Source of the DNA: a virus | Virus record (IMG/VR): IMGVR_UViG_3300049483_000131 | Location: 1 to 23,043 of that record | Strand: one strand, 5' to 3' | DNA length: 23,043 nucleotides | In this document: positions 2,418-19,870 of the stretch, in pieces | Numbering within the stretch: the first letter of the stretch is position 1 | Layout: the number at the start of each line of letters is the position of its first letter | Position numbers and translations under genes: made by a program | Notes under the pieces: generated by a model | What the model was told of the DNA's origin: nothing | The model's database searches: none | What the model saw: only the letters and a program-made list of their open reading frames with translations

Positions 2418-4496
2418 GTGGCTGCATACGACAACGAATACTGGGCCGGGAAGCCTGCCTCCGATGCCGTCAAGGAGGTGTACCGCCGGATCGACAACTA
2501 CTACCAGTGGCTTCGCTTGACCGGCACCTACGACCTGTGGGTGCGCTCGGTGCAGGAATACTACGCGGGCTACAACACCCGCGGGCAGCTCGGGGTCACG
2601 GGCGAAGCGGATGAGTACCTGACCTCCAAGGAAAACCACCTCCACAACATCGGGGAGAACATCGTCATCATGACGACGGGGAGTCGCCCGTCGTTCGAGC
2701 CCAAGGCCAAGAACAGCGACCATAGCAGCGCGGCGCAGACCATCATCGCCGCGGGCCTCCTCGACAACGCGCACCGCGAGAAGGACCTAGAGGGCATCGG
2801 CATCCAGGTCGTGCGCGACGCGGGGTGCCTGTTCGGCGAGGGCGTGGCGACGGTCCTGTGGGACTCGAATGCAGGCCAGGACTTCACGCGCAACCCGGAC
2901 ACGGGCAAGAACGAGAAGACGGGCGACATCAAGCTCCGCCGGCACATGGCGATCGACACGGCCCGCGACCATACCAAGACCAACCCCGACGATCACATCT
3001 GGTACGCGGTGCGCACATGGGAGAACCGCTACGATCTGGCCGAGACGCGGCCGGAGATGCGAGCGACCATCTTGGGCCTGCCGAGCCGCTACGATGAGAG
3101 CGCGAAGCGGCCCACGCTCACGCGCGACTGGAAGGGCATCGTTTCCACGGACAGCGACGACGTGGCTGTGTGGGACTTCTTCCACGCGGACACCCCGGGC
3201 CTGCCCGGCGGGCGCCGGCTGCGGTTCTGCGCCGAGGACTGCATCATCTTCGAGGGACCGCTACCGATGGACGAGTTGCCCGTCTATCGGATGACCTCCG
3301 AGGACATGGTGGGCACGCAACTCGGATACGCGCCCCTGTTCGATCTCCTGGCGCCACAGCACGTCGTGAACAGCCTCGACTCGACCATCACCAGCGCCAT
3401 CGCCAACGTGGGCTATGGCTCCGTGTGGGTGAAGGCGGGGGACAACCTCGACGTCGAGTCGGTTACCGGCAATCTCAAGATGATCCGCAGCGCCAACAAG
3501 CCGGAGCCGCTCAACCTCCTCGAGATCCCGCAACTGGTGAACGAGTACAAGAATCAGAAGATCGCCGGGATGGAAGCGATCTCTGGCGTCAACAGCGCGC
3601 GCCGCGGAACGCTGGTGAACGAGAAGGCGATGAGCGGCGCCGCGCTCGCCCTCGTTGACGCGAAGGCTATCGAGTACAGCAAGGGCCTGGAACGCGGGTA
3701 CGTGAAGTGGCTCGAGCGGATGGCTACGGCCATCATCCGGGCTTACCGGCGCTACGCCAAGGTTCCCCAGGTGGCGCTGGTGGCGGGCAAGGCGAACCGC
3801 TCGTACATGAAGCAGTTCACGGGCGCGGACCTCGACCGGATCGAGCGCGTGACGGTGGACCTGGGCAGCCCGCTTGCCCGCACGGTGTCGGGGCGCATGA
3901 ACCTCGCCCAGATGTTCCTGGGCATGGTGAACCCCAAGACGGGCGACAGCGTGATCAAGACTCCCGACCAGCTCGTGCAAGTGCTCAATACGGGCCGTCT
4001 CGAACCGGTCATCGAGGCCACGACTGCGGAACTGATGAACATCCGGGCCGAGAACGAGCGGCTTTCGGACGGGAAACCCTGTCACGCGCTCATCAGCGAC
4101 AACCACCCACTCCACATCCGGGAGCACCTGATCACCACGAACAGTCCCGAGGCGCGCGAGAGTGCGCAGCCTGGTCCTGACGGGATGCCGGGCGTGACGC
4201 CCGCCGATGTCGCCTTGGAGCACGTTCAAGAGCACATGGCGCTTTGGTCCGAGGCGCCGCCTGCGTTGCTCGCCGCCCTCGGGGTCCCGCCTCCTCCGAT
4301 GCCCGTGGCCCCGGTCCCTCCCCCGGGCGCGGTGGACGGGGGAGGCGGTGGCCCCGTTCCGCCCGGCCAGCCGCAGCCTGACGGAGCGGTGCCTGCGCCT
4401 GGCGGGATGGGGGACGCTCTACAGGGGTCCATGCCCCAGATGCCGAAATCGCCGCTCACGGGAGAGCGCGCGGAATACCCGATGCCGGGGGCGTGA
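2418..4496 (+). CDS. Portal protein
   Basis: This 692-aa protein is called as the dodecameric portal (head-tail connector core) through which DNA is packaged and ejected. It lies directly after terL, with the GTG abutting the terL TGA and a GGAGGCGG ribosome site at 2407-2414. Its size is close to P22-type portals. The region SGAALALVDAKAIEYSKGL, followed by a long helix with YVKWLERMATAIIRAYRRY, matches the stem/wing pattern of phage portals. An N-terminal section rich in Tyr/Trp (residues 1-60) is typical of podovirus portals. The last 80 or so residues are Pro/Gly/Ala-rich and probably disordered or internal to the capsid. The TGA shares its A with the next ATG (TGATG). The family assignment rests on position, length and sequence style; no search was run. 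Confidence 0.85.
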   Translation: MAAYDNEYWAGKPASDAVKEVYRRIDNYYQWLRLTGTYDLWVRSVQEYYAGYNTRGQLGVTGEADEYLTSKENHLHNIGENIVIMTTGSRPSFEPKAKNSDHSSAAQTIIAAGLLDNAHREKDLEGIGIQVVRDAGCLFGEGVATVLWDSNAGQDFTRNPDTGKNEKTGDIKLRRHMAIDTARDHTKTNPDDHIWYAVRTWENRYDLAETRPEMRATILGLPSRYDESAKRPTLTRDWKGIVSTDSDDVAVWDFFHADTPGLPGGRRLRFCAEDCIIFEGPLPMDELPVYRMTSEDMVGTQLGYAPLFDLLAPQHVVNSLDSTITSAIANVGYGSVWVKAGDNLDVESVTGNLKMIRSANKPEPLNLLEIPQLVNEYKNQKIAGMEAISGVNSARRGTLVNEKAMSGAALALVDAKAIEYSKGLERGYVKWLERMATAIIRAYRRYAKVPQVALVAGKANRSYMKQFTGADLDRIERVTVDLGSPLARTVSGRMNLAQMFLGMVNPKTGDSVIKTPDQLVQVLNTGRLEPVIEATTAELMNIRAENERLSDGKPCHALISDNHPLHIREHLITTNSPEARESAQPGPDGMPGVTPADVALEHVQEHMALWSEAPPALLAALGVPPPPMPVAPVPPPGAVDGGGGGPVPPGQPQPDGAVPAPGGMGDALQGSMPQMPKSPLTGERAEYPMPGA

Positions 4497-4732
4497 TGGA
4501 TCGAGTCGAGCCAAAGAGCGGGCTGCGAAGCACGGAATTCTACGTCGCGGTGGTGGCGATGGGCATCGGCGGCGCTGCGATGTTCTTGGGTCACCCGTGG
4601 GTCGGGGGCTTGGTGGTGTCTGCCGTTGCCGTCGGCTACGCGGTGGCTCGTTCCCTCGACAAGCGCGCCGCGCACTTGGCGAACGGCGAGACCAACGCCG
4701 CCGTTGCCTCTAGCCGCTCGAGGACGGTCTAA
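4496..4732 (+). CDS. Small two-helix membrane protein, holin-like
   Basis: This 78-aa protein has a short polar N-terminus (MDRVEPKSGLRSTEF), then two hydrophobic segments. They are about residues 15-32 (FYVAVVAMGIGGAAMFLG) and 35-52 (WVGGLVVSAVAVGYAVAR), separated by a tight HP turn. A charged C-terminus (SLDKRAAHLANGE) follows. Small phage proteins with the S-G-x-x-x-T-E-F entry and a helical hairpin occur widely and are often annotated as holin-like. The position here, between portal and virion genes rather than beside the endolysin, leaves room for a non-lysis role. The start is ATG 4496, fused to the portal stop as TGATG. An in-frame GTG three bases earlier is also possible. Confidence 0.6.
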   Translation: MDRVEPKSGLRSTEFYVAVVAMGIGGAAMFLGHPWVGGLVVSAVAVGYAVARSLDKRAAHLANGETNAAVASSRSRTV

Positions 4733-5134
4733 GTGGCTACCTGGGCAGAACTCGGCAGCTCGGGCCGCAGCGTGACCAGCACGCAGAATGCGACTGACTC
4801 CGCGCCCACGCTGGATACCGAGGGCTGCAACCTCAGCGACGTGGGCGGATTCGATCTCTTCGTGGAGTGCCAGAACGCGCAGACGTTCACGGGGACCACC
4901 GGTTCCTTCCAAGCCTACAAGTGGAGCGAGAACCTTGCGGCCTGGTACCGCGCTCCGGAACTCGACGTGAGCATCCCGACCGGAGGGGTCGGGCAGCGCC
5001 GCGTGGTGTTCCCAGGCTGGAACGTGAGCGCGCCGCGCGGCCGGGTGGCGCACATCGCCAACAGCGTTGCGGTGTCGGGCGGCACCCTGACGGTCAGCTA
5101 CATCTGCTCAACCATCTACGCGGCAAGGAGCTAG
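4733..5134 (+). CDS. Small beta-rich putative virion protein (133 aa)
   Basis: I do not recognise a family. The protein is rich in Ser, Thr, Gly and Val, with alternating hydrophobic residues typical of beta sandwiches, for example TGSFQAYKWSENLAAWYRA and GTLTVSYICSTIYAARS. There is no signal peptide or membrane helix. It contains three cysteines. It begins at GTG 4733, immediately after the TAA of the previous gene, and ends seven bases before the next gene. Placement in a run of similar small beta proteins beside portal and capsid genes suggests a capsid decoration or minor head protein, which is inference only. Confidence 0.65.
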   Translation: MATWAELGSSGRSVTSTQNATDSAPTLDTEGCNLSDVGGFDLFVECQNAQTFTGTTGSFQAYKWSENLAAWYRAPELDVSIPTGGVGQRRVVFPGWNVSAPRGRVAHIANSVAVSGGTLTVSYICSTIYAARS

Positions 5135-5140
5135 CGGGTC

Positions 5141-5563
5141 ATGGCGATCACCAGCGCAGTTTCCAACACCTACAAGCAGAGCGTGATGAAGGGGTGGCAC
5201 CGCTCCGGCGACACCTACAAGATGGCGCTGTACGTCGCTGCGGCCACCCTCGACGGCACCACCAGCGCCTACACCGCGACCAACGAGGTTGCGAGCGGTG
5301 GCGGGTACACGACCGGAGGCGCCACGCTCGCCGGGTTCTCCGTGTCGCTCTCCACGAACACGGCACGCCTGACCTTCACGACTCCGACCTGGCCTACGTC
5401 GACCATCACGGCGCGCGGGGCCATGATCTACAACACCTCGAGCGGGACGAACGGCGGCGCCGCGAACGAGATGGTTGCGGTGGTCAACTTCGGCTCCGAC
5501 ATCAGCAGCTCGGGCGGCACGTTCACCGTGACGCTGCCGCTTGACGCCATCACCCTGACCTAG
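5141..5563 (+). CDS. Conserved-type phage structural protein (140 aa)
   Basis: The pattern MAITSAVSNTYKQSVMKGWH, then TYKMALYVAAATLDG, TATNEVASGGGYTTGGA and TITARGAMIYN resembles a common family of small phage proteins found in head/tail modules. In that family the core reads 'KLALYTSSATL...NEVSGTGYTAGG...TARGALIYN'. This resemblance comes from memory, not a search. The fold looks all-beta, and no enzymatic residues are apparent. The start is ATG 5141, six bases after the upstream TAG at 5132-5134. The role is probably a virion surface or tail-associated structural component. Confidence 0.7.
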   Translation: MAITSAVSNTYKQSVMKGWHRSGDTYKMALYVAAATLDGTTSAYTATNEVASGGGYTTGGATLAGFSVSLSTNTARLTFTTPTWPTSTITARGAMIYNTSSGTNGGAANEMVAVVNFGSDISSSGGTFTVTLPLDAITLT

Positions 5564-5566
5564 CCC

Positions 5567-6469
5567 ATGCGCAGACTCATGCTTGCCGCCCTGGTGGTTG
5601 CCCCGCTGGCGGCTGGGGCGCAGTCGGCCGTGAAGGTCTACTCGACCGACACGGTGCAGGCCGGATGCTCCCTGGGCGCGCTCAACGCCACCTGTGAAGT
5701 GGAGATGGCGGGGAAGACCTCGGCCGGATTCGTCGTGACCGCCGTGTCCAGTCCCACCGGGATCACCCTGGTGAACGAGTCCACCCGGGATGGCACCAAC
5801 TGGGACGGCCACCGCTTCGTGGACGCGGATGGCGGCACGACGCTGACCTCGGTGCCCAACGCTTCGCTGGCGGTCGGCTACGGCAAGGGCCTGGTGCTCG
5901 GCTCTGGCGCGAAGCGGGTGCGGGTGCGAGTCAGCGCCTACACCAGCGGCAGCGCCACGGTCACCGTGCGCGCGAGCGACACTCCCTACCCGTCGATCTT
6001 CCCCACCTACGAGGTCAACGACGGCGCGGCGCAGCCCACGGCGGTCACCACCGGGGAGTACCGCGCCCCGCTGGTGGCGCCGGACGGGCGACAGTACGTC
6101 CAGCTGGGCGGCCCGGTGCTGTGGCGGTGCAGCGTCAACGCTATCGCGGCCACACTGACCCAGTGCCAAGCCGCCCCGGCGGCGGGCCTGTCCCTATACG
6201 TGTCCTGGCTCGCGTGGCAGAGCACCACGACCACGGCTGGGACGGGCGCGATCCAGAGCGGCACGGGCACCAACTGCGGCACCACAACCACGGCGATCTT
6301 CCCGGCTTCGGGCACTGCCAACCGTTACGGGTACCCAGCTTCCAGCGCGGCAGCTACCACGATCTTCTTCCCGGTGCCGATCAAACTCACCGCGGCGCAC
6401 GCGCTTTGCGTGATCGGGGTGGCGACGAACACCGTGCGCGCTGATCTCGGCGGGTTCACTGCCCCATGA
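5567..6469 (+). CDS. Sec-signal beta-rich protein, function unknown (300 aa)
   Basis: Residues 1-18 form a classic Sec signal peptide: basic n-region MRR, hydrophobic core LMLAALVVAPLAA, and an A-G-A cleavage site followed by QS. The mature part is Ser/Thr/Gly/Ala-rich and all-beta in appearance. It has cysteine pairs spaced as in C-x9-C near residues 33-43, plus further cysteines in the C-terminal half (WRCSVN, LTQCQ, TNCGT, ALCVIG), consistent with disulfides outside the cytoplasm. No enzyme motif is seen. The ATG at 5567 lies three bases after the previous stop. Its own stop overlaps the next gene as ATGA. An exported product is unusual between portal and scaffold genes. It could be an envelope-located accessory (moron-like) protein or a virion protein with a fortuitous leader. 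Confidence 0.7.
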   Translation: MRRLMLAALVVAPLAAGAQSAVKVYSTDTVQAGCSLGALNATCEVEMAGKTSAGFVVTAVSSPTGITLVNESTRDGTNWDGHRFVDADGGTTLTSVPNASLAVGYGKGLVLGSGAKRVRVRVSAYTSGSATVTVRASDTPYPSIFPTYEVNDGAAQPTAVTTGEYRAPLVAPDGRQYVQLGGPVLWRCSVNAIAATLTQCQAAPAAGLSLYVSWLAWQSTTTTAGTGAIQSGTGTNCGTTTTAIFPASGTANRYGYPASSAAATTIFFPVPIKLTAAHALCVIGVATNTVRADLGGFTAP

Positions 6470-7212
6470 TTCGCGCGCTGCTCATCGCCGCGGCGCTCCT
6501 CGGGCCCACGAGGCTCCCGTCGTCCGGGGCGCAGGGGACAGGCTCCGGGACCTGCAACAACAACTGCACCGCGCTGATCTCGGTGGTGAGCGGAACGCCG
6601 GTTACTTGCAGCGGTACTGGCAACGCCACCATCACCTGCACGATCCCCGCTTCAACCTACCAGACCAACGACATCATCGTAGCCCTGTTCAGCAATGGCG
6701 ACAGCCAGTGTGGCGCCCCTGCGCTTACCAACGTCAGCGGGGCGGTCCTGGGTTCGTTCACCAGGGCGCCCTGCACCTTCGTCGCCAGCGGTTCGGCGTC
6801 GATCTGGTACAAGGTGGCGACCGGCAACCAGGCAGCCTCCACGGAAGCGATCTCCCTGCTCAACGATGACGGTTCGGGAGGCCTTACCTCGGGAGCGGTC
6901 TATGTCGTGCGTGGCGCGAACACCGCGGGGCCGTTCAATCTGACCACCACGGGGACTGCCACCGGAACCGCGGCCACCCTCACCCTCACCACCCAATCCG
7001 CCTCATTCACTTTCGTCGCGCTTCACTCCGGCACCTCGGCCACGACGCTCACGCCGAACAGCGACACTACCTGCGCTTTCAACACTTCGGGCAACGGCCA
7101 AGGCAACGCCCTGTGCATCTCGAATAAGGCCCTAACCACGGCCACGCTCGGCGGAACATGGGGCGCAAGCAATACCTGGGTCGCTGCCGAAATGGAGATC
7201 CGCTCCAACTAG
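6466..7212 (+). CDS. Second Sec-signal, cysteine-rich beta-sandwich protein (248 aa)
   Basis: The N-terminus MIRALLIAAALLGPTRLPSS followed by GAQ looks like a signal peptide with cleavage near residue 22. The start of the mature region is dense in cysteines (GTCNNNCT, VTCSG, ITCTI), with more later (SQCGAP, RAPCTF, TTCAF, ALCIS). The central part (NDIIVALFSNGD, then SIWYKVATGNQAAS, then SGAVYVVRGA) follows the pattern of a beta-sandwich domain often seen in phage fibre and adhesion proteins. That pattern is hydrophobic 'D-x-hhhhFh', an 'hWYKVAt' strand and a 'hhhhRGh' strand. The function is unknown. Its ATGA overlap with the preceding secreted-type gene suggests the two products work together. 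Confidence 0.7.
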   Translation: MIRALLIAAALLGPTRLPSSGAQGTGSGTCNNNCTALISVVSGTPVTCSGTGNATITCTIPASTYQTNDIIVALFSNGDSQCGAPALTNVSGAVLGSFTRAPCTFVASGSASIWYKVATGNQAASTEAISLLNDDGSGGLTSGAVYVVRGANTAGPFNLTTTGTATGTAATLTLTTQSASFTFVALHSGTSATTLTPNSDTTCAFNTSGNGQGNALCISNKALTTATLGGTWGASNTWVAAEMEIRSN

Positions 7213-7219
7213 GAGAGTC

Positions 7220-7513
7220 ATGGCTGCTCCGACCGCAGTGGCTCAGAACACCGTGAGCGTTTCCGGTGGCACCGGCACCGGCACCACGCTCGACACCAAC
7301 GCGGCGAGTCGCCAGATCGTGATGGTCGAGAATCAGGGGACGGAGGAGTTGACCGTGGTTCTCTCCACGGGGGCGGCTCCCACTGTCACAGTGGGTACCG
7401 GGTACATCATCTACCCGGGCTCCTCCGAATGGTTCTGGGCTGGCACCGGGCTCAGGTTCTACGCCCGCCAGGCCACCACTGCCGCAAACGTGAACGTGGT
7501 TGAGCTGAGCTAG
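7220..7513 (+). CDS. Small beta-rich putative structural protein (97 aa)
   Basis: This is a small all-beta protein with no membrane helix and no signal peptide, beginning MAAPTAVAQNTVSVSGG. The core has VMVENQGTEELTVVLSTG, then YIIYPGSSEWFWAGTGLRFYA. This reads like a compact beta barrel or sandwich of the kind used as capsid decoration or fibre-tip domains. GAGAGT-like purine bases precede the ATG at 7220. An inverted repeat (7379-7395) lies inside the coding region. It ends at TAG 7511-7513, one base before the next GTG. The function is inferred only from context. Confidence 0.6.
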   Translation: MAAPTAVAQNTVSVSGGTGTGTTLDTNAASRQIVMVENQGTEELTVVLSTGAAPTVTVGTGYIIYPGSSEWFWAGTGLRFYARQATTAANVNVVELS

Positions 7514-7514
7514 A

Positions 7515-8366
7515 GTGGCAACGACCCGCAACAAACTGGCGCTGATCGCCGCTATCGCGGCGGTGACGGGCGGGGCTGGCGACGCGACCGCCACATGGTC
7601 ATCGCGGTCGATGACCGCGGCGGTCGGGACTTGGACCGCGACCGGCGACGCAGCGACGACGTGGAGCAGCCGGGCTATCACGGCTGGCTTGGGAACGTGG
7701 GTAGGGGCGGGCGGCAGCACGGTTTCGTGGCCGTCTCAGGCGATCACTTCCGGTCTTGGCACCTGGGCGGCTACTGGTGGCAGCACTGTCGCGTGGGCGT
7801 CGCAGGCCGTCACCACTGGACTAGGAACGTGGGCGGCTACCGGCGGCGCCACCATCACATGGGGCAGCCAGGCAGCGACGTTCGGGCTTGGAACGTGGGT
7901 CGCTGACGGCGGCGCTGGAACGCCTGGCAACGCAACCTGGCCTAGCCAGGCGATATCGGCTGCGGTTGGGACCTGGGCGGCAACCGGTGGCGCCGACGTG
8001 GCGTGGAGTACGCAGGCGATCACCGCCGCGCTAGGTTCGTGGGTCGCTTCTGGAGGCGGCACGACTGCGTGGCCATCGCAGGCCTTCACCGCGGCGCTGG
8101 GCACATGGTCTGCCACCGGAGGCGCGACGGTCACTTGGCCCTCCGAAGCGGTCACGTTCGGGCTGGGAACGATCGCTGCCTACGTGGCGCCGCCTATCGC
8201 CTGGCCTTCTAGAGCAATCAGCGCGTCCCTTGGTTTCTGGGTGGCGGATGGTGGCGGAGGTAGCGTTTTGCCACCCGCGCCCAAGGAACGCCCGGGACGT
8301 AGCAGGCTCGGCGCCTTCACCCCTTGGTACAAGAGGCATGTGATCAGGCGCACACGGAGGAACTAA
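7515..8366 (+). CDS. Ten-unit tandem-repeat protein (283 aa)
   Basis: After a short N-terminal segment (MATTRNKLALIAAIAAVTGG), residues 28-250 are built of ten tandem units. Their first tryptophans fall at residues 28, 50, 72, 94, 116, 142, 164, 186, 208 and 230. The period is 22 residues, with one 26-residue unit. The consensus unit is W-x-S-[QR]-A-[IVM]-[TS]-x-[AG]-[LV]-G-[TS]-W-x-A-x-G-G-x-T-x-x. Two aromatic positions per unit, regular glycines and alternating residues suggest a repetitive beta solenoid or fibre. The C-terminus (residues 251-283) is basic and proline-rich (PPAPKERPGRSR, HVIRRTRRN). I recognise no named family. It may be a head fibre, a decoration protein or an assembly ruler. 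The start is GTG 7515, one base after the previous stop. Confidence 0.72.
   Translation: MATTRNKLALIAAIAAVTGGAGDATATWSSRSMTAAVGTWTATGDAATTWSSRAITAGLGTWVGAGGSTVSWPSQAITSGLGTWAATGGSTVAWASQAVTTGLGTWAATGGATITWGSQAATFGLGTWVADGGAGTPGNATWPSQAISAAVGTWAATGGADVAWSTQAITAALGSWVASGGGTTAWPSQAFTAALGTWSATGGATVTWPSEAVTFGLGTIAAYVAPPIAWPSRAISASLGFWVADGGGGSVLPPAPKERPGRSRLGAFTPWYKRHVIRRTRRN
7596..8270 (+). repeat. Tandem 66-bp coding repeats (ten units)
   Basis: Each unit is about 66 bp and encodes 22 residues. One unit, from the codon for W116, is 78 bp. The DNA copies are clearly diverged: TGGGCGGCTAC and TGGCTTGGGAACGTGGGT type blocks recur with many silent changes. The repeat is therefore old and held by selection on protein, not a fresh slippage product. 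This makes the unit count a real property of the protein and a site where copy number could differ between relatives. Confidence 0.8.
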
Positions 8367-8379: not shown

Positions 8380-9342
8380 ATGGCAGATGCCGCAGCGGCG
8401 GCTACCCCTACCGATACCGGCGGGGCGTCGTCAGCAGGAAGCGGAACCGAGTCGCAGGCAGCCCCCGTCGTTCAGGACAGCAAGACAGGCGAGACGACTT
8501 CGCCCGGGGGAGAGCAGAAGGCCGCAGAGCAGAAGCCCGCTGAGCCAAAGACGTACAAGCGGAAGATCAACGGGCGGGAGGAGTCCATCCCCGCCGACGC
8601 GATCGACGCCGCAGCCAAGGCTCTCGGGATCGATGCGCAGGATCTCCTGAACGGATCGCAGCTCAAGAAGGCAGCCTACGAGAAGTTCGAGGCTGCCCGG
8701 AAGGAAGCGGAGCGCGTCGAGAAGTTGAAGGCCAGCAAGGACCCGAGGGCCATCGCCCGTGAGTTGCTGGGCATGGACGAGGCCGCGTACCGGAAGCACG
8801 CGGAAGACTTCCTGCTAGCCGAGTTGCAGCGCGAACAGCAGATGGCCGCGCTCACCCCGGAACAGCAGAAGTACGAGTCCCAGCGCCAGGAGTTCGAGCG
8901 GCAGCGGCAGGAGTTCGAGCGTCAGCAGTCGGAGGCCAAGGAAGCGCAGCTCGCCGCCCAGGTCACGGAGGTTCGCGGGAAGCTCGAGCCGATGATCCTC
9001 GGGGCCATCGAGAAGGCGGGGCTTCCCCGCACCCCGGCTGCCGTGCGGGCCGTGGTGGACGAGTTGCAGGCACAGCAGCGGTACGGCCTGCCCCTCGACG
9101 TGGATGCTGCCGTCAGGGACTCCCAGCGTGGCCTGGTGGAACCTGTGGCGCAGATGCTCGGCAAGATGCCCCCGGAGCGCCTCGTCCAGTTGCTCGGGAA
9201 GGAAGCCTATGACGGGCTCCTCCGCTACTCGATCTCCCAGAAGGGCGAGCCGCAGCGGCCCCAGACTCAGCAGCCGGCGGCGGCGAAGGAGAAGGGGCGT
9301 TCGTGGATGACGGAGCAGGAGTGGCGCGAGAAGTACGGGTAG
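8380..9342 (+). CDS. Capsid scaffolding protein
   Basis: This 320-aa protein lies directly before the major capsid gene. It has the composition expected of a scaffold: a disordered Ala/Gly/Ser/Thr N-terminus (1-55), a charged helical middle and a coiled coil at about 140-205. The coiled coil includes a duplicated heptad-like block (RQEFERQ repeated at about 169-182). The C-terminal section ends in a Lys/Arg-containing helix (KEKGRSWMTEQEWREKYG), where scaffolds usually contact the capsid protein. Cysteines are absent. Scaffolds organise the procapsid and then leave or are cleaved. No protease motif is visible here. The AAGGAGG site supports ATG 8380. Confidence 0.82.
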   Translation: MADAAAAATPTDTGGASSAGSGTESQAAPVVQDSKTGETTSPGGEQKAAEQKPAEPKTYKRKINGREESIPADAIDAAAKALGIDAQDLLNGSQLKKAAYEKFEAARKEAERVEKLKASKDPRAIARELLGMDEAAYRKHAEDFLLAELQREQQMAALTPEQQKYESQRQEFERQRQEFERQQSEAKEAQLAAQVTEVRGKLEPMILGAIEKAGLPRTPAAVRAVVDELQAQQRYGLPLDVDAAVRDSQRGLVEPVAQMLGKMPPERLVQLLGKEAYDGLLRYSISQKGEPQRPQTQQPAAAKEKGRSWMTEQEWREKYG

Positions 9343-9546: not shown

Positions 9547-10839
9547 ATGGCTACCAACGTTTCAACCGCGCAGCTCACCGGTAACTTCAAGGAAGTCTAC
9601 GGCGATCTCAAGGTCCTGTACCCTGAGATGGCGCTGCTCATCAAGGAGGCTGGCGAGCTCACCGAGGCCGAGCGCGTCGGTAACGAGTACCACCAGCCCG
9701 TCCTCCTCACTCGAGAGCAGGGCTACACCTACGGCGGGTCGAGCGGCGATGCCTACACCCTGTCCAGTTCCGTCGCGCTCAGCATGGCCGACGCGAAGCT
9801 CCAGGGTGTGGAGAACACGCTGCGCAGCCGCATCTCGATGCGCGCCGCGACCAAGGCCGTAGGGAGCACCAAGGCGTTCAAGCAGACCATCGGCCTCACG
9901 CTCAAGAGCAACATGAGCAGCCACGTTCTCCGCAAGGAGAAGGAGATGCTCTACGGCGGTTCGACCCTGGGCCTGGGCGTCTCGGCCTCGATGGCGAACA
10001 CCTCGAGCACCGTCACCACGATCACCCTGACCGCGGCCACCTGGGCTACCGGCCTGTGGGCTGGCGAGGAGGGCGCGACCCTGAACGCCTTCCGCACCGA
10101 CACCGGCGCCCTGATCTCGTCCGGCGCGGACGCGATCTTCACCGTGACCAGCGTCGACCCGGACAACCGGGCCGTCGTGCTCACCGGCACCACCACCGGC
10201 ACCACCGCCATCCAGGCGCAGGCCGCGAACACCACGCTCGCCTTCGCCGGCGCCCGCGCCGCGCTCGCCACCCTGGCCGAGGCCACCGGCCTGCACTACG
10301 TCTCCGCAGTCGCCGCCGGTACCACCGTGTGGAACATCTCCAACACCAACACCCTGTGGCGGCCCTCGCAGCACTCCTGCGCTTCGGGCGCCCTCACCTT
10401 CGGCAAGGTCGTCGCCGGGATGCAGAAGCCCATCGCCAAGGCGGCGCTGGACGAGAACGTGAAGCTCTACGTGTCCACCGACACCTTCCCCAGCATCGTG
10501 GACTCCTTCGCCGCTGCCCGGATGCTCGACAGCTCGTACAGCCCCGAGGAGTACAAGAACGGCGCCGGCAAGGTCAGCTACGTGTTCGGTCCCGGCATCG
10601 CCACCGTGGTTCCGCACCCGATGGTGATGGGCGGCCACGCCTTCGCGGTCCCGGTGGGCGCTGCCAAGCCGAAGAAGGTGGGGTCGACGGACATCACCTT
10701 CGACGTGCCCGGCCGCGGCGAGATGTTCACCCTCATCCCGGACGCCAACGGGTTCGAGTTCCGCAGCTACTCGGACTACGCCCCGTTCCTGCCCGAGCCC
10801 GCCAAGTACGTCCTGTTCACCAACATCGTGAACCCGTAG
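9547..10839 (+). CDS. Major capsid protein
   Basis: This 430-aa protein follows the scaffold gene and has the HK97-fold style. An N-terminal helical arm (FKEVYGDLKVLYPEMALLIKE) is followed by an extended loop region with Tyr/Gly (EQGYTYGGSSGDAYTL) and long helices (KAFKQTIGLTLKSNMSSHVLRKEKEMLYGG). Residues about 150-225 form a Thr/Ser/Val-rich beta block (TVTTITLTAATWATGLWAGE) that looks like an inserted domain. The C-terminal part has VKLYVSTDTFPSIVDSFAA and a terminal GFEFRSYSDYAPFLPEPAKY. It is preceded by a GAGGT ribosome site and flanked by RNA hairpins on both sides. Codons are strongly biased to C-ending forms, as expected for very high expression. Confidence 0.88.
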   Translation: MATNVSTAQLTGNFKEVYGDLKVLYPEMALLIKEAGELTEAERVGNEYHQPVLLTREQGYTYGGSSGDAYTLSSSVALSMADAKLQGVENTLRSRISMRAATKAVGSTKAFKQTIGLTLKSNMSSHVLRKEKEMLYGGSTLGLGVSASMANTSSTVTTITLTAATWATGLWAGEEGATLNAFRTDTGALISSGADAIFTVTSVDPDNRAVVLTGTTTGTTAIQAQAANTTLAFAGARAALATLAEATGLHYVSAVAAGTTVWNISNTNTLWRPSQHSCASGALTFGKVVAGMQKPIAKAALDENVKLYVSTDTFPSIVDSFAAARMLDSSYSPEEYKNGAGKVSYVFGPGIATVVPHPMVMGGHAFAVPVGAAKPKKVGSTDITFDVPGRGEMFTLIPDANGFEFRSYSDYAPFLPEPAKYVLFTNIVNP

Positions 10840-11983: not shown

Positions 11984-12877
11984 GTGGCCTGGCTCATTGA
12001 GGACCTGATCGCTTCCGCGAAGCTCTACGCTTCGATCCCCACCGCGCAGGCCACGTTTCAGACGGCAGACTTTCTCCGCATCGCCAACGAGGAGCTGCTG
12101 ACCTACGTCGTCCCCCTCGTCACGTCGCAGCGGGAGGACTTTTTCATCGCCCATTACGACGTGCTCCTCCAGAACGGGGTGACGGAGTACCGGATCCCGC
12201 CTCGCGCGGTTGGCACGTCGCTGCGCACGGTGTGGGTCATCAGCCCGCAGAGCAGGCTGATTAAGTTCCCTCGCATCTCCAGGGACGACCTCGAGGGAGC
12301 GAGCACTGGCTTCTACCTAGACGGCAACATCCTGTCCCTGGTGGTGGATGACCCGAACAACGTGAGCCAGATCGGCACCGCGTTGCGGATGACGTACCAC
12401 ATCCGCCCCAACACCCTCGTTGCCTCGACGGCCGTCGGCACGATCTCCAACATCAACACCGGCACCAAGCAGGTCACGGTGTCGTCGGCGCCCGGTACGT
12501 TCTCCAGTACCGCTCGCTACGATCTCCTCCGGGGCCGCTCCGGGTTTGAGCACCTCGGGATCGACCTGTCCGCAACCGTGGCCGGGGGTGTGCTGACGTT
12601 CACGGACACGCTGCCCGCGGACCTCGTGACCGGCGACGTGGTGGCGCTGGCTGGGGAGGGGAACTACCCGCAGATCCCCGTCGAGCTTCACCCGCTCCTC
12701 GCCAGGCGCGTTGCGATGCGGTGCCTTGAAGTGATGGGGGACAACGAGAACCTCCAGAGCTGCGCTTCCGTCTTGGCCCGGATGGAAGCGGATGCGGTGA
12801 AGATCATCACCCCGCGCGTGCCCGGGAACGTGGAGCGGCTCGTTAACCGCGGCAGCCCGTTCAGGTTGAGCTGGTGA
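11984..12877 (+). CDS. Head-tail adaptor protein
   Basis: This 297-aa protein has features I associate with podovirus connector/adaptor proteins that dock below the portal. The N-terminal helix pair is LIEDLIASAKLYASIP, then FLRIANEELLTYVVPLV. The segment EYRIPPRAVGTSLRTVWVI follows. The C-terminal helical part is ELHPLLARRVAMRCLEVMGD, ending in NVERLVNRGSPFRLSW. A beta-rich insert lies near residues 150-215. The GTG at 11984 has GGGAGG ten bases upstream. Its TGA overlaps the next gene as GTGA. The order capsid, small head proteins, adaptor, large tail protein is that of short-tailed phages. The assignment is from pattern and position. Confidence 0.78.
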   Translation: MAWLIEDLIASAKLYASIPTAQATFQTADFLRIANEELLTYVVPLVTSQREDFFIAHYDVLLQNGVTEYRIPPRAVGTSLRTVWVISPQSRLIKFPRISRDDLEGASTGFYLDGNILSLVVDDPNNVSQIGTALRMTYHIRPNTLVASTAVGTISNINTGTKQVTVSSAPGTFSSTARYDLLRGRSGFEHLGIDLSATVAGGVLTFTDTLPADLVTGDVVALAGEGNYPQIPVELHPLLARRVAMRCLEVMGDNENLQSCASVLARMEADAVKIITPRVPGNVERLVNRGSPFRLSW

Positions 12878-15411
12878 CCCGGTGGCTTCCATGCCTGTTC
12901 CTACTCGCCTGCGGGGATCCTGACGTGGCCCAGCAAGTCACCGTGACCGCGAAGGGCCTGTACACCTCCCCCAACCAGTTGGGAGAGGTGCCTGACGGCG
13001 CGCTTGCGCAGGCCGACAACGTGGTGATCTCGAAAGAAGGGGTCATCGAACCGAGGCACGGGGCATCGGGCATCGCCGCTCTGACTACTGGTCACGCTGC
13101 GAGGCTTGCTGCCTACGGCGGAAGCCTGGTCATGGATTCTGTTTCCTTGGGCGTGGTTATGACGCCCGCCAGGTATCGATCATCGGATGGAGTTACATGG
13201 ACGGCTTGGAACGACGCAAACGGCAACATTTCATTTCCCGGAGATCGGACCCGCCACGTTACGGGAGACAACGGAGAGGCGATCTTTAGCGGCTACGACT
13301 CGGTTTGGGCGGCTTCGGCGCTTGGATCCGCGCTTATCCCGGCCGGTGGTCCCGCTGGAACGTATCTGAAACTTGCCTTGGCGGCTGGCACCGGGACCGC
13401 TGTTGCCAACAACAAGGACGTTGCTTACCGGGCCGTGTGGAGTGCGGTTCGTAGCGACGGGACCACCCGGGAAGGCGCGCCATCGTCGCGGTTCACGGTC
13501 TCCAACGCCAGCGGAAGCGCAAAGGACATCACTGTCAGCATCGGGGCCCCGTCCAACTACGGAGCGTCGGGGTTAAAGGCATCCCTCTACCGGTCGGCTG
13601 AGGTTGCGGTAGGGGCAACCCCAAGCGAGGAGATGCAACTTGTTCAAGAGCGCACCGTCACGCTCCCATACGTGGCTTCCGGGGAAACCGTATCGAGAGT
13701 GACGAACGTAGTCACCATCACCACAGCAACGGCTCACGGGTTTGCGGTTGGCGACGTGATCTATGCGAGTGGACTGACCAGTGCTCCGGCCACCGGCTTT
13801 TTCACGCTGACGGGCGTCACGTCTACGACCATGTCGTTTGCCAGCGTTGGAGCCAACGAGTCCGGCACCAATGGAGCCCATCGCCTCATCGAGGCCGTTT
13901 GTACCGACAACGTGCCGGAAGCCCTGATGGGGGCGACGATCTACGTCGCTCCCTCGCAGGGCGGGATCCTAGCATCAAAGTACCAGCCGCCCACCGCGTA
14001 TCACATAGAGTTGTTTCGCGGGTCCACCTTCTACGGGAACGTAGTGGAGGCGGCGGAGCAGTCCTTGACGCTCCTAAGCGTTGGCGCCCCGTCCGGATTG
14101 CAATCCGGGGATACGGTAACGCTTGGGGTGATCTCCTTCACGGCTGGGGCGGCGGAAAATTACACAACCAAGACCTTTCTGCTCACCACTGGTGGGACTG
14201 CGGCGGCGAACGTGGAGGCTACCGTTGCCTCCCTAGTGCGCGTCATCAACGCGAACACGACCACGGCCGGCGTTACTCCCGTGGCTTTTCAGGAAAGCGA
14301 CGAGTCGCCGGGGCGAATGGTGGTCCGCGTTGCCGGGTCCAAGTCGCTTGCGCAGGGCGTGCAACTGGCGGTGTCGCGTGCGACGTGCTGGCTGGAGACG
14401 CCAGGAAATGTGTACGCGCAGGCCCGGCCGTCTAGGCTCTACTGGTCGAGTCCAGGCGAGGCGGGGGCCGTTCCGCTCACGAACTACGCAGATGTCGGCG
14501 GCTTTGGCGCAGAACTTCGGCGCCTCGTCGCCACCCGGGACGCGCTCTTCGTCTTCAAGGACGACGGCATCTGGCGCGTCACGGGCACCGGCGGCGTCTG
14601 GGACGTGCAGCCCGTTGACCCGACGATGTCGTGCCCGGCACCGGAGTCGCTGGTAGCGTTTGAAAACGCGGTGTTCGGGCTCCTTGACTCGGGCGTAGCG
14701 AAGGTTACGGAGTCCGGGGTCGAGATCATCAGCACCCCGATCTACTCCAGCCTGGAGCCGCTGATCGCCCCAGCGGTCAAGGCGACGACGGAGGCCGTAG
14801 CCTTCGGGATCGCGTACCACTCGGCGCACAAGTACATCCTGTGGCTTCCCGCGGCTGCGGGTGACACGGTGGCGAAGCAAGCGTTCGTGTTCGACTCCTG
14901 GACCAACTCCTGGGAGCGGTGGCTTCCTCCGACCGGCGTGACGGGCTTCTATCACGGGGTCGTGAACCCGGCCGATGACCGGCTCTACATGGTCGACGGC
15001 ACGAACGTCTGGCAGGAGCGCAAGACCTCCTCCTCAGCGGACTTCACGGACGGCACCGCGACGGCGATCCCAACCGTCGTCAAGTGGAGTCCGAAGGTGG
15101 GGGGCAACCCCGGCGGGCGGCATCATTTCCGGGAAGTCGCGCTGCACTTCCGGTCCGTGCAGTTCACCACCGCATCGATCTCCTTCGCCACGGACGTTTC
15201 CCCGGCGGAGGAGACGATCACGCTCACCGGGACCGACTACGGGGTCGATTCCGCGCGAGGCCCCACGGTCATCCGGGCGCTGGTGCCGCTCGAGAAGGCG
15301 CGCGGGTCGCAACTCCTCGTGAAGTTCTCGCACGCGAACGCGGGGATGACCTACGAGCTGGAAGGCTTGAGCGTCGTGTTCAACCCCGGGTCTACGAGGG
15401 TGGGGCGCTGA
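12874..15411 (+). CDS. Large tail (nozzle/propeller-like) protein, 845 aa
   Basis: This is a probable tail tube/nozzle component attached to the adaptor. From GTG 12925 the sequence starts MAQQVTVTAKGLYTSPNQLG, then GALAQADNVVI. That opening is common in podovirus tail proteins whose bodies form beta-propeller-like blades. Later sections include RRLVATRDALFVFKDDGIWR and FVFDSWTNSWERWLPP, both propeller-like. Two inserts are visible. Residues about 274-332 carry the HGFAVGDVI pattern of E1-FCCH-like domains in phage proteins. Residues about 395-492 carry an INANTT block like that in the gene at 10903. The upstream GTG 12874 gives the GTGA overlap typical here. It also adds a lipoprotein-like leader (CLFLLAC-GDPD), so the true start is unsettled between 12874 and 12925. 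Confidence 0.8.
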   Translation: MTRWLPCLFLLACGDPDVAQQVTVTAKGLYTSPNQLGEVPDGALAQADNVVISKEGVIEPRHGASGIAALTTGHAARLAAYGGSLVMDSVSLGVVMTPARYRSSDGVTWTAWNDANGNISFPGDRTRHVTGDNGEAIFSGYDSVWAASALGSALIPAGGPAGTYLKLALAAGTGTAVANNKDVAYRAVWSAVRSDGTTREGAPSSRFTVSNASGSAKDITVSIGAPSNYGASGLKASLYRSAEVAVGATPSEEMQLVQERTVTLPYVASGETVSRVTNVVTITTATAHGFAVGDVIYASGLTSAPATGFFTLTGVTSTTMSFASVGANESGTNGAHRLIEAVCTDNVPEALMGATIYVAPSQGGILASKYQPPTAYHIELFRGSTFYGNVVEAAEQSLTLLSVGAPSGLQSGDTVTLGVISFTAGAAENYTTKTFLLTTGGTAAANVEATVASLVRVINANTTTAGVTPVAFQESDESPGRMVVRVAGSKSLAQGVQLAVSRATCWLETPGNVYAQARPSRLYWSSPGEAGAVPLTNYADVGGFGAELRRLVATRDALFVFKDDGIWRVTGTGGVWDVQPVDPTMSCPAPESLVAFENAVFGLLDSGVAKVTESGVEIISTPIYSSLEPLIAPAVKATTEAVAFGIAYHSAHKYILWLPAAAGDTVAKQAFVFDSWTNSWERWLPPTGVTGFYHGVVNPADDRLYMVDGTNVWQERKTSSSADFTDGTATAIPTVVKWSPKVGGNPGGRHHFREVALHFRSVQFTTASISFATDVSPAEETITLTGTDYGVDSARGPTVIRALVPLEKARGSQLLVKFSHANAGMTYELEGLSVVFNPGSTRVGR

Positions 15412-15828: not shown

Positions 15829-16569
15829 ATGGCGTACCTGTCTCGCTTCTTCGCGCAGGGCCGGAAGCCGGATGCGCTGGCGTCTGGCGGACCCTCGGCC
15901 CTGACCGCCGATGCCCCCGTGGGCGCTGCTCCGGGCCCGACGGCTGCGCCTACCGCCCCGGCCGGTGGCGTCAACGACATCCGCGCGTTCTTCGCTGCCA
16001 ACCAGGGCGCCGGAGATCAGATGCTCTCCGGGATCGCGGACAGCATCAGCCAGCGCCTCGGGGACGCGGGCAACCAGGCGCGCGGAGCGGTCCGGCAGGA
16101 GACCACGACCACGCCGGGCGGGTTCACTAACGGCCTGCCGCAGGGCCAGGGGTTCGGCGGTCTCGGCTACGCGCCTCCCTCTTCCTCGACCCACAACGTC
16201 ATCGATCAGGGCCGTATGGACGCAGCGCAGGGGGCCTATGACTCCGCCGCGGGCGACGCGCGGGCGCTCATTGGCGGCGACACCTCTGGCCTGTCCGCCC
16301 TCCTGCCGCAGGGTGGTAGTCGAATGGGCCGCAACCTCGACGCGTGGTTGATGCAGGGCGCGATGGGACGGGGCGACACGGCCAGTCGTCTACAGGGCAG
16401 CATGGACAACGCCCAGAACGCGATCCGCGACACGCTCGATCCGCCCACTACCCGGGCCTTCGTTGACGTCCCCGCGGGCACCACGGACCCGGCCGAGGAG
16501 GCTCGGCGCAGGCAGGGCAACCCTCGGGGCGGTGGTGGGGCCCCGTACACCGGAAGGGGAGGGCGCTAG
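15829..16569 (+). CDS. Putative internal virion (ejection) protein 1, 246 aa
   Basis: This is a low-complexity, Ala/Gly/Pro/Gln-rich protein starting MAYLSRFFAQGRKPDAL. A disordered N-terminus comes first (20-55), then short amphipathic helices (NDIRAFFAANQGAGDQMLSG, and the region around residues 120-195) and a Gly/Arg-rich tail. Proteins of this type cluster in threes between tail and spike genes of podoviruses, where they are packed in the head and injected ahead of DNA. The start is ATG 15829, one base after the preceding TAG. No lysozyme or transglycosylase motif is visible. Function is inferred from context and composition. Confidence 0.6.
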   Translation: MAYLSRFFAQGRKPDALASGGPSALTADAPVGAAPGPTAAPTAPAGGVNDIRAFFAANQGAGDQMLSGIADSISQRLGDAGNQARGAVRQETTTTPGGFTNGLPQGQGFGGLGYAPPSSSTHNVIDQGRMDAAQGAYDSAAGDARALIGGDTSGLSALLPQGGSRMGRNLDAWLMQGAMGRGDTASRLQGSMDNAQNAIRDTLDPPTTRAFVDVPAGTTDPAEEARRRQGNPRGGGGAPYTGRGGR

Positions 16570-17280
16570 ATGGACCCCCTGAGCATGGCGGCGCTGGGTA
16601 GCGTCGGCGGAAGCATCCTCGGCAACCTGTTCGGTGGCGGGGATGGCGAGGAGGAGGCCCTCCGGCGGGCCCTGGAGGCCATCCAGGGTGCCAACTGGGA
16701 GGCGGGTCCCTCCGCCTACGGGACCGATCAGGACTACGGCGCTGCGCTCGCAGCGATGCGCAACGAGGCGCAGAGCGGCGGCATGTCCACCGCGGACCGC
16801 ATGACCCAGGAGGCTGCGGCGAACGCTGCGGCTCGGCAGGCGCGGGGTCAGCAGGGCGCCCTGATGCAGAACTTCGCGGCGCGCGGGCAGGGCGGGGGCG
16901 GCGCGGAGCTCGCGGCCCGGATGCAGGCCAACCAGAACCTTACCGAGGCTCAGCACGGGTACGCGGCTCAGCAGGCGGGCGAGGCGCAGCGGCGTGCCCT
17001 CCAGGCTCTCCAGGGCTGGGGCGGGATGGCCGGGCAGCGTGCCGGCGCGGCCGACGCGATCTCCAGGTTCAACGCGTCGCAGCGGGGCGCGAAGGCTCAG
17101 GCCACCGCGGGCGTCTACGGTCAGCAGGCAGGCGCGGCTGCGGCTCAGGATCAGCGAACCCGGGACATGTTCGGCGGGGGTGGTGCAGCCGCGGGGTACC
17201 TTGCTGGTGACTACTTCTTCCCGAACAAGAAGAAGGAAGACGATAGGGCAGCGATTCCAGAGTGGCCCAGGGAGCAATAG
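16570..17280 (+). CDS. Putative internal virion (ejection) protein 2, 236 aa
   Basis: The N-terminus MDPLSMAALGSVGGSILGNL is a glycine-spaced hydrophobic stretch able to insert into membranes. A long Ala/Gln/Arg-rich helical region follows (about 30-205), with repeated QA/AQ motifs typical of coiled ejection proteins. A short hydrophobic patch near the C-terminus (GGGAAAGYLAGDYFF) precedes a Lys-rich end (PNKKKEDD). Overall it resembles gp14-like podovirus internal proteins in size and style, although sequence similarity was not tested. It directly abuts the upstream gene (TAG then ATG). Confidence 0.62.
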   Translation: MDPLSMAALGSVGGSILGNLFGGGDGEEEALRRALEAIQGANWEAGPSAYGTDQDYGAALAAMRNEAQSGGMSTADRMTQEAAANAAARQARGQQGALMQNFAARGQGGGGAELAARMQANQNLTEAQHGYAAQQAGEAQRRALQALQGWGGMAGQRAGAADAISRFNASQRGAKAQATAGVYGQQAGAAAAQDQRTRDMFGGGGAAAGYLAGDYFFPNKKKEDDRAAIPEWPREQ

Positions 17281-17282
17281 AG

Positions 17283-18413
17283 ATGCCGCTTCCTCCCGAA
17301 GTCGAGGAGTACCTGCGAAAGAACTACGGGGACATCCCCGCTAGCGTTCTGTCCGGTCCCAAGGTCGGCCCTCCTCCGCCGGAGTTCGTCGCTGCGCAGG
17401 ATGCGGACGCGGCAGCTCGTGAGGACGCCCAGCGCCAGGCCGTGCTGGGCTCTGCTGCCAACGCGTTCGCGGGTCGTGGATTCCGGATGCCGGAGCGGGT
17501 CGCGCCGATCAACGAGAACGTGCGGCGCTACCTCGAGCAGCAGCAGGCGGCGAGGGCCGCGACCATCGACCCGATGGAGGCCATCAAGCGTGCGATGGAC
17601 ATCCGCAAGGGGAACCTGGACGCCAGCAAGACCGGGGCGGAGATCGGGAAGCTAGGTGCGGAGACGGGGAAGATCGGGGTGGAGATCCCACAGGTCATCG
17701 CCAGCACCGCCAAGACGGCAGCCGAGACGCCCGGCGCCGCGGCGGACTCCGCCATCAAGAAGGGGCTTGCCGGTCCCGTGACTCCGGCCGCGCAGGCGGT
17801 CGCCAAGGAGTACGGGTTCCAGTTCCCTCCGCAGACGACGGAAGAGGGAGCGCGGACCCTGCTCAAGCAACTCGACGACGCGAAGAAACTGGAGGCGCAG
17901 AAGGGCGAGAAGGCCAAGAACGTCACCACCGATCTGCGCAAGGAGTTCCAGGGAAACCAAGTCTACAAGGACGCTCAGCAGATCGCCTCCTCCCACGAGA
18001 AGGTGCGAACCGCGAGCCCTACGCCGGCCGGCGACATCGCGCTTGTCTACGGGTTCATGAAGATCCTCGACCCGGGGTCTGCGGTGCGAGAGGGGGAGTA
18101 CGCCACTGCGGCAAACGCGGGCGGCGCCTTCGCCAAGCTGGGCAACGTCTACAACTCGCTTCTCAAGGGCGACAAGCTCCCGCAGTCGGTGCGCGACGCC
18201 TTGAAGGCGGAAGCCACCACGACCTATCAGGCGCAGATGAAGCGGTACGAGTCGCTTGCGGAGCCGTACCGGGGCCTTGCCCGGAAGTCGGGAGCGAACC
18301 CGGAAGACGTGGTGTTGCCGTTCGTTCAGCCGGACGAGGCGCCCGCCGCGCCTTCCGCTCCGGCCGCCGACCCTGCCACTTCCAACCTTCGCAAGAAGTA
18401 CGGGCTTGAGTGA
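17283..18413 (+). CDS. Putative internal virion (ejection) protein 3, 376 aa
   Basis: ATG 17283 (MPLPPEVEEYLRKNYGDIPA) is preferred because GGGAG lies eight bases upstream at 17270-17274. GTG 17262 would add seven residues. The middle is helical and Ala/Lys-rich, with a short KTGAEIGKLGAETGKIG imperfect repeat. The region from about 225 to 330 (YGFMKILDPGSAVREGEYAT, then LGNVYNSLLKGDKLP) and the close YRGLARKSGANPEDVVLP match a pattern I recall in phage structural/DNA-transfer proteins. No catalytic centre is seen. The position between other ejection candidates supports a packed, injected protein. Confidence 0.65.
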   Translation: MPLPPEVEEYLRKNYGDIPASVLSGPKVGPPPPEFVAAQDADAAAREDAQRQAVLGSAANAFAGRGFRMPERVAPINENVRRYLEQQQAARAATIDPMEAIKRAMDIRKGNLDASKTGAEIGKLGAETGKIGVEIPQVIASTAKTAAETPGAAADSAIKKGLAGPVTPAAQAVAKEYGFQFPPQTTEEGARTLLKQLDDAKKLEAQKGEKAKNVTTDLRKEFQGNQVYKDAQQIASSHEKVRTASPTPAGDIALVYGFMKILDPGSAVREGEYATAANAGGAFAKLGNVYNSLLKGDKLPQSVRDALKAEATTTYQAQMKRYESLAEPYRGLARKSGANPEDVVLPFVQPDEAPAAPSAPAADPATSNLRKKYGLE

Positions 18414-19870
18414 TGGCCACCCCGTCCGCCGCGGAGATGATGGAAGACCTCCGGGCCGCAGACGCGGCCGGAGACACCGCGCTTGCCCAGCACATCGCCG
18501 GGCTCATCAAGGCGTCCGGTGGAGCGCCGAAGGCGGAGCCCGCCCGCGTCGGGATGGGAGACGTTCAGGCTGCGCCCTCCTCATTCCCCGACACCAGCAA
18601 CATCCCGGTCGGTGCCCTGACCGGTGACCCGGCGACGGACGCCCGGCTTGCGGCCGCATCCGCAGCCTCTGGGGGCAGGCACTCGGGTACCACGCGGGAC
18701 GCACTGGGCGCCGGGGCGGTAGGGCTCGGCATGGCCGGCGCCGCGCTGCCCGGAGCCCTCCCTGCGGCGATCTCTGGGGCGCTGATGTCCGGTGGCCTCA
18801 AGGCGGCGACCCCTGACGCATCCGCCGGAGAGATCGCCAGCGCGGCAGGCATCGGAGGGACCGTCTCCGGCGGGCTCGCGAAACTGGCCCCCTACCTGCT
18901 GGGCAAGATCGGGTCCTACGCCCGCGGGAAGGTGGACGCCGCGGAGGCGAAGACACTGGCGCAGGCCGCGGGCGAGAAGGCGGCGGAACTGAAGTCCGCC
19001 ACCAGCAGCCTCGGCGGAGCCTCCCAGGACCTCAACCGAAAGGTCGAGTGGGTGATCCGGCTCCTCGATGAGGAGGCGAGCGGCGCCCTGTCACCCGCCA
19101 ACCGGAAGCTACTGGAGCAGTTCCGCCAGACCCCGGAATACGCGGACGTGGTCAACAAGGCGGCGGAGCGCGTCCTCGGCACCGCCCCTGGAGCCGCGGG
19201 CAAGGTTACAGCCAAGGAGGCGCAGGTGGCCGGGCTGCAACAGTCGCTCCCCCAGGACATCGCGGAGCGGTCCGATCAGCTTCTCTCCCCGGCCACGGCC
19301 AAGGAGCAACTGTACTCCCGTCTGAAGCGGTACTGGATCCCGGCTGCCGGTGGCGTCATCGGCGGAGCCATCGGGGGGCCCGCCGGCGCTGGCGTCGGGA
19401 TGCTCGCGGGTCGCGGCGCTAGCCCGTCCATCCAGGCGCTCGGACGGATGGTGCAGCACCCCTCGTGGCAGAAGGCGATGTACGAGCCGCTTACGGGCCT
19501 GGGGTCTGGCGCGGTGGCGAAGAGCGGTCTTCCCCCGGCTGGCATCGGGGCGCTGGTTGGCCAGGAGGCTCCGGCGCTTCGCTTCGCGCCCTCTGCGGCC
19601 GATAGCACTCCAGCGTCAGTAGCCCAAGGACCAGCAGGAGACGCACCCACGTCGGCACCCGCGCAGGGTACTCCGCAGCCCCCCGCCACGTCTACCGCCT
19701 CCATCCTACAGCGCCTCGACGCCACGCCCCAGACCAAGACCTATGCGGACTGGCTCCGCAAGGTCGAGGCCCAGGCTGGCCCCGGTGGCGTCGCCGCCGA
19801 ACACGCGAAGCTCTACGAGCGAGACCCCGCCTACCGCCAGGCCGTCAGCGGCCGGGAGCCGACTCCGTGA
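18413..19870 (+). CDS. Large membrane-active ejection protein candidate, 485 aa
   Basis: This Ala/Gly-rich protein has an N-terminal helical head (ATPSAAEMMEDLRAADAAGD). Residues about 98-128 and 140-165 form a glycine-zipper-like hydrophobic stretch (GAGAVGLGMAGAALPGALPA). A coiled, charged middle follows (170-300), then a second glycine-rich segment at about 307-335 (IPAAGGVIGGAIGGPAGAG). The C-terminus is Pro/Ala-rich and ends in a helix (DWLRKVEAQAGP). Glycine-zipper segments are typical of proteins that line or perforate membranes. This fits formation of a channel for DNA across the host envelope. ATG 18413 overlaps the previous TGA (TGATG). No lysozyme motif was found. Confidence 0.62.
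   Translation: MATPSAAEMMEDLRAADAAGDTALAQHIAGLIKASGGAPKAEPARVGMGDVQAAPSSFPDTSNIPVGALTGDPATDARLAAASAASGGRHSGTTRDALGAGAVGLGMAGAALPGALPAAISGALMSGGLKAATPDASAGEIASAAGIGGTVSGGLAKLAPYLLGKIGSYARGKVDAAEAKTLAQAAGEKAAELKSATSSLGGASQDLNRKVEWVIRLLDEEASGALSPANRKLLEQFRQTPEYADVVNKAAERVLGTAPGAAGKVTAKEAQVAGLQQSLPQDIAERSDQLLSPATAKEQLYSRLKRYWIPAAGGVIGGAIGGPAGAGVGMLAGRGASPSIQALGRMVQHPSWQKAMYEPLTGLGSGAVAKSGLPPAGIGALVGQEAPALRFAPSAADSTPASVAQGPAGDAPTSAPAQGTPQPPATSTASILQRLDATPQTKTYADWLRKVEAQAGPGGVAAEHAKLYERDPAYRQAVSGREPTP

Follow-up and report, generated by a model that had tools for sequence, protein, structure and literature searches.

Phage head fibres and decoration proteins (phi29 gp8.5, crAss001 gp21 and gp29, T4 Hoc, phage L Dec) are accessory products encoded among the head genes, and they are presumed to be elongated and surface-binding. 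To our knowledge, none of them is built as a beta-solenoid of 22-residue repeats, and we know of no signal-like N-termini described for them. The trimeric head fibre of crAss001, gp21, is numbered after the portal, gp20 (PMC10172136). Most decoration proteins are rich in beta structure, and several help attachment (PMC7602432). Variable structural cassettes of phages are already known to encode beta rods made of repeats. Outside virions, the right-handed beta-solenoid surface proteins, represented by the TpsA-type HxuA secretion domain, the SRRP binding region, tapirins and putative Bacteroidales adhesins, are exported and surface-binding, whereas bactofilins, small right-handed beta-helices with a hydrophobic core, are cytosolic and cytoskeletal. 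The T5 Llp type stands for phage-encoded envelope proteins of receptor blocking or superinfection exclusion; Llp, a lipoprotein, is described as an early-expressed product whose gene adjoins that of the receptor-binding protein, and T5-type lipoproteins are the precedent for an exported receptor-blocking phage protein (PMC8624392).

The repeat protein described here, encoded by an uncultivated phage of the short-tailed type, shares with the head fibres and decoration proteins a location among head genes, an accessory character and a presumed elongated, surface-binding form, but it has no homology to them. It resembles the right-handed beta-solenoid surface proteins in its predicted coils of ∼22 residues, which match theirs at 2.0-3.0 Å. 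Unlike them, it carries two tryptophans per coil, is far shorter and ends in a basic tail, and there is no sequence similarity. Bactofilins match its five-unit model at 2.2-2.4 Å (VIA Z 8.4-8.8), but the protein has no Pfam match. Like Llp, it may be an exported phage product at the host surface, as proposed here; in contrast to Llp, it has no lipobox, is encoded in a late operon and is a predicted solenoid.

Repeat architecture and selection

The window, that is, the whole stretch of DNA analyzed, is the linear IMG/VR virus record IMGVR_UViG_3300049483_000131 (23,043 bases, positions 1 to 23,043). According to the ORF list and repeat statistics, the repeat protein (7515..8366, +) has 283 residues, a mass of 28 kDa and a pI of 11.4. 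Its GTG codon lies 1 base past the stop of the upstream gene, behind a weak Shine-Dalgarno-like stretch, and is the likely start because the next in-frame start falls within unit 1. Ten tandem units (7593..8264, +, residues 27-250), delimited by repeat statistics and a unit model, follow the consensus T-W-P-S-Q-A-I-T-A-G-L-G-T-W-A-A-T-G-G-A-T-V and start at residues 27, 49, 71, 93, 115, 141, 163, 185, 207 and 229. Nine are 22 residues long, and the fifth reaches 26 through a 4-residue insertion in the Gly-rich loop. Self-identity at lag 22 reaches 107, whereas 2000 shuffles never exceeded 51 at any lag. Scored with a model derived from the units themselves, all ten give 33-41 bits, which is circular but shows their mutual likeness; the N-terminal 26 residues score -3.8 bits with the same model and are thus not a degenerate unit.

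The units are followed by the basic C-terminal tail GSVLPPAPKERPGRSRLGAFTPWYKRHVIRRTRRN (8259..8363, +), modeled mostly at low AF2 confidence. The last 38 residues of the protein hold 10 K/R and 1 D/E, and tblastn of the tail against phages gave no meaningful match. The layout proposed in the original prediction, ten 22-residue units with one 26-residue variant and then a basic tail, is therefore borne out by the ORF, the unit starts and the lag-22 signal. A detail absent from it is the degenerate ninth unit, in which W14 is replaced by I and the GG is lost.

Neighboring units are identical at 27-48 of 66 bases and at 7-16 of 22 residues. Over all unit pairs, mean pS is 0.71 and mean pN is 0.32, with pN below pS in 45 of 45, and W2 and G12 are invariant across units despite silent changes. 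Purifying selection between the units is supported by these sequence comparisons, in agreement with the earlier reading of the silent divergence as selection on the protein.

Predicted fold

Structurally, the full-length AF2 model from the single sequence is all-beta (pTM 0.67). Within the units, most pLDDT values lie at 76-87 and fall where the insertion and the degenerate ninth unit occur; residues 1-17 and the tail are modeled with low confidence. A second run, on units 1-5 with a shallow six-row self-alignment, is again all-beta (pTM 0.66); its five models disagree, with mean pLDDT from 75 down to 34. Both predictions take the form of a right-handed beta-solenoid. Foldseek alone returned no match in PDB or BFVD at E ≤ 0.001 for the repeat protein model. 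With VIA-align applied to the Foldseek candidates, right-handed beta-helices match at 2.0-3.5 Å, many of them exported adhesins. For the full-length model these include the HxuA secretion domain (Z 16.8), SRRP (Z 16.5) and tapirin (Z 15.5), beta-helices of this type aligning at 2.7-3.0 Å over ∼200 residues. The best VIA match of the five-unit model is the beta-helix of the putative adhesin 4opw (Z 11.3 at 2.0 Å). Left-handed helices (LpxA type, LpxD/GlmU) align only at ∼12 Å.

AF2 yields beta-solenoids from >40% of random perfect repeats, a bias that, according to the same authors, may matter mainly with near-perfect repeats (PMC11795689). The units here are imperfect, with neighbors identical at only 7-16 of 22 residues. 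Support independent of AF2 comes from the conservation pattern: the even unit positions (W2, S4, A6, T8, G12, W14, A16, G18) are conserved and the odd ones variable, and period 2 is the strongest mode of conservation along the unit (p about 0.007). This alternation suggests beta-strands with one buried face. The sole indel, in unit 5, falls in a predicted Gly-rich loop. Taken together, the two models and the alternating conservation indicate that the protein is probably a beta-solenoid, so that the rod or solenoid guessed at the outset appears likely. If folded as modeled, it would provide a simple two-tryptophan, 22-residue beta-solenoid repeat that is useful for studies of solenoid folding and design.

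Homology searches

Searched against the profiles of Pfam, PHROGs and NCBIfam, the repeat protein hit no family even when E values up to 1 were admitted, and no match was found among PDB sequences, which upholds the view that the unit has no named family. No relative was recovered by tblastn against phage and plasmid records, by full-protein peptide scans of IMG/VR contigs, or by a scan of GTDB contigs from bacterial genomes with six exact peptides. The same holds for two IMG/VR patterns, one for the DNA of a single unit and one for the G-T-W/W/G-T-W spacing, both of which recover the window's own units. The best score of the unit model outside the window (L153, E 7e-4) was judged to be chance, as it falls on a 48-residue frame inside the region of another phage gene. 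Short W-x-x-G-x-W type repeats (∼10 and ∼20 residues) turned up through the spacing pattern in unrelated viral ORFs of two records, L155 and L162.

The relatives of the phage itself are distant only, with 31-35% identity for the coat protein, 32-37% for the terminase and ∼35% for the portal; a scan of IMG/VR with the portal found nothing. The repeat protein is absent from the 15 records of distant relatives identified by a terminase or coat match at 30-36%, a search in which the window alone served as positive control. Absence from relatives, which the original prediction had named as evidence against itself, thus applies to the distant relatives found, and the collections searched hold no close relative of this phage. 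By these searches, the repeat protein is an orphan, and its unit is without a named family.

Genomic neighborhood

Genomic neighborhood analysis places the repeat gene in the last position of a variable accessory cassette of seven ORFs (4493..8366, +). The left border is the portal gene (2418..4496, +; phrog_156, E 4e-6; 35% identity to relatives). The right border is a scaffold-like gene (8380..9342, +), assigned from synteny, charged coiled composition and weak BLASTP matches to the gene that relatives carry between portal and coat. The major coat protein (9547..10839, +) shares 31-35% identity with coat-position genes of relatives and was named by synteny. The proposed placement in the head module, just before the scaffold gene, is confirmed by the PHROG match of the portal and by synteny and BLASTP for the other two.

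Directly upstream of the repeat ORF lies a gene for a 97-residue beta-type protein (7220..7513, +), whose stop codon ends 1 nt before the repeat ORF start and which has no significant family or profile match. Two further cassette proteins with signal-like N-termini by an N-terminal heuristic, one with 6 Cys (5567..6469, +) and one with 8 Cys (6466..7212, +), are likewise without family match. Within the cassette, a clear PHROG match exists solely for 5141-5563 (phrog_644, unknown function, E 5e-17, nearly full length).

In BLASTP comparisons with the relatives L002-L017, the terminase, portal, scaffold-like, coat, adaptor-like and nozzle-like genes match, whereas none of the seven cassette ORFs (4493-8366) does. 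The interval between portal and coat holds the scaffold gene only in L005, L006, L011, L013, L016 and L017, one or a few small extra ORFs in L007, L009, L012 and L014, and four to five accessory ORFs in L002-L004, unrelated and encoding small beta or fibre-like proteins. Because the content of the slot varies between relatives, the repeat gene occupies a variable accessory slot and does not belong to a conserved assembly set; an essential scaffold or assembly factor should be retained wherever relatives share these head genes, and the repeat protein is missing from the relatives found.

Among the slot proteins of relatives are paralogues that vary in their N-terminal parts and have a C-terminal beta domain in common, and one (L002:7957-8592) matches the tail-fibre family phrog_30742. 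Profile comparison of the L002 and L003 slot proteins with those of the window gave no significant result. Recurring motifs such as VTQSTSPWVVSGTV occur in two slot proteins (L004:4998-6830 and L003:7398-8297), in L003 ahead of the common C-terminal beta domain. The slot may be a site where this phage group exchanges surface-acting genes.

N-terminal features

The N-terminus of the repeat protein, MATTRNK-LALIAAIAAV-TGGAGDATA (7515..7592, +), is signal-peptide-like by a Kyte-Doolittle heuristic. The stretch MATTRNKLALIAAIAAVTGGAGDATA has a 10-residue mean of 2.98, the highest near the N-terminus among the window genes checked; basic residues (R5 and K7) precede it, and A-x-A at residues 24-26 stands immediately ahead of unit 1. 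Judged heuristically, the sequence thus has the Sec-type traits of a basic n-region, a hydrophobic h-region and a small-residue cleavage site. Of the 7 cassette genes, 3 encode a signal-like N-terminus; among the ORFs of relatives the figure is 2 of 237 (Fisher 1.4e-4, with a cut-off set after seeing the data), and among the other window genes it is 0 of 15 (p 0.02, under the same post hoc cut-off). The export criterion is a post hoc hydrophobicity heuristic, and Ala-rich frames in high-GC DNA can mimic an h-region. With their signal-like N-termini and even Cys counts (6 and 8), the proteins at 5567-6469 and 6466-7212 are candidates for phage products that are exported and disulphide-bonded. 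Should these signal-like N-termini prove genuine, exported envelope proteins would come from a late head operon, which is unusual.

Possible functions

The best-supported reading is that of an accessory beta-solenoid, expressed late, that would act at a cell surface. More specifically, we tentatively read the repeat protein as an exported solenoid acting on the envelope or surface of the host cell. This reading is slightly favored over a head fibre, as the signal-like N-terminus tips the interpretation toward export. Each of the ten units would form about one coil of a right-handed beta-solenoid. Inside, W2 and W14 would line up as two tryptophan ladders packed on the small residues S4, A6, T8, G12 and A16, with the variable residues outside. 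The N-terminal 24-26 residues would serve as a Sec signal, and the solenoid may leave the cell along with at least two cysteine-rich neighbors of the same cassette. There, a likely job would be to cover glycans or receptors on the cell, which would spare progeny from being lost to debris or bar superinfection, and the basic tail would anchor it to an anionic envelope polymer. Export, which would keep the protein out of a virion assembled in the cytoplasm, was not part of the original prediction, nor were the signal-like N-terminus and the variable-cassette location. Against it, the gene sits in a late virion operon, the slot proteins of L002-L004 lack signal-like N-termini (one being tail-fibre-like), and so strongly basic a C-terminus is unusual in an exported protein. 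A broader version, in which the late head operon exports at least three accessory proteins (the Trp-ladder beta-solenoid and two disulphide-rich proteins) that jointly remodel or shield the host surface, whereas relatives use the slot for virion fibres, seems unlikely.

The position of the gene in the head cluster, between the portal and scaffold-like genes of the late operon, favors a virion surface appendage, and a head fibre or decoration protein is a plausible alternative. Its rod would be bound to the capsid at one end, perhaps through the hydrophobic N-terminus or the basic tail, its solenoid would bind host-surface glycans, and it would be dispensable in the laboratory. A variable slot fits accessory surface proteins; relatives hold a fibre-like protein there (L002:7957-8592, phrog_30742) as well as the paralogues that join a variable N-terminal part to a common C-terminal beta domain, and crAss001 provides a precedent. 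However, no homology links the protein to known head fibres or decoration proteins in PHROG, Pfam or PDB sequences, or to the slot proteins of relatives, and its signal-like N-terminus also speaks against this role. The tail, with ten basic residues against one acidic, might instead bind packaged DNA or scaffold within an internal, ejected or assembly-aiding protein whose N-terminal leader is removed during assembly. The P22 ejection protein gp7 has such a cleaved leader, and the repeat gene lies immediately ahead of the scaffold-like gene. We consider this role decidedly improbable: all relatives found assemble without the protein, ejection proteins do not typically fold as beta-solenoids, and other candidates for internal proteins are encoded downstream of the tail genes (15829-19870). 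The suggestion of a new virion or assembly element therefore survives only in part. A virion location is plausible, if indirectly, from the place in the late operon and the fibre-like genes in a relative's slot, but a part in assembly does not fit a slot that is empty in several relatives and a protein found in none.

Finally, the ORF might be a spurious frame, or a low-complexity repeat that expanded recently and does not fold stably. Its codon-position GC (0.58, 0.76, 0.74) is atypical of this genome, as other genes peak at position 3; A, G and T dominate the composition, and there are no relatives. Recent expansion, however, predicts near-identical DNA copies, yet adjacent units match at only 27-48 of 66 bases. 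The selection evidence, with pN below pS in all 45 unit pairs and W2 and G12 held invariant amid silent changes, weakens the case for a non-functional repeat and leaves it very unlikely.

Farther downstream, in the coat and tail region, the gene for the nozzle-like tail protein of the window (12874-15411) begins with a GTGA-overlap start, and its product opens with MTRWLPCLFLLACGDP, a lipoprotein-signal-like extension ahead of the part matched by BLASTP in relatives. Near the coat and tail genes of relatives are ORFs judged by eye to be HNH-endonuclease-like (L003:11239-11610, L002:15651-16073 and L005:11264-11956).
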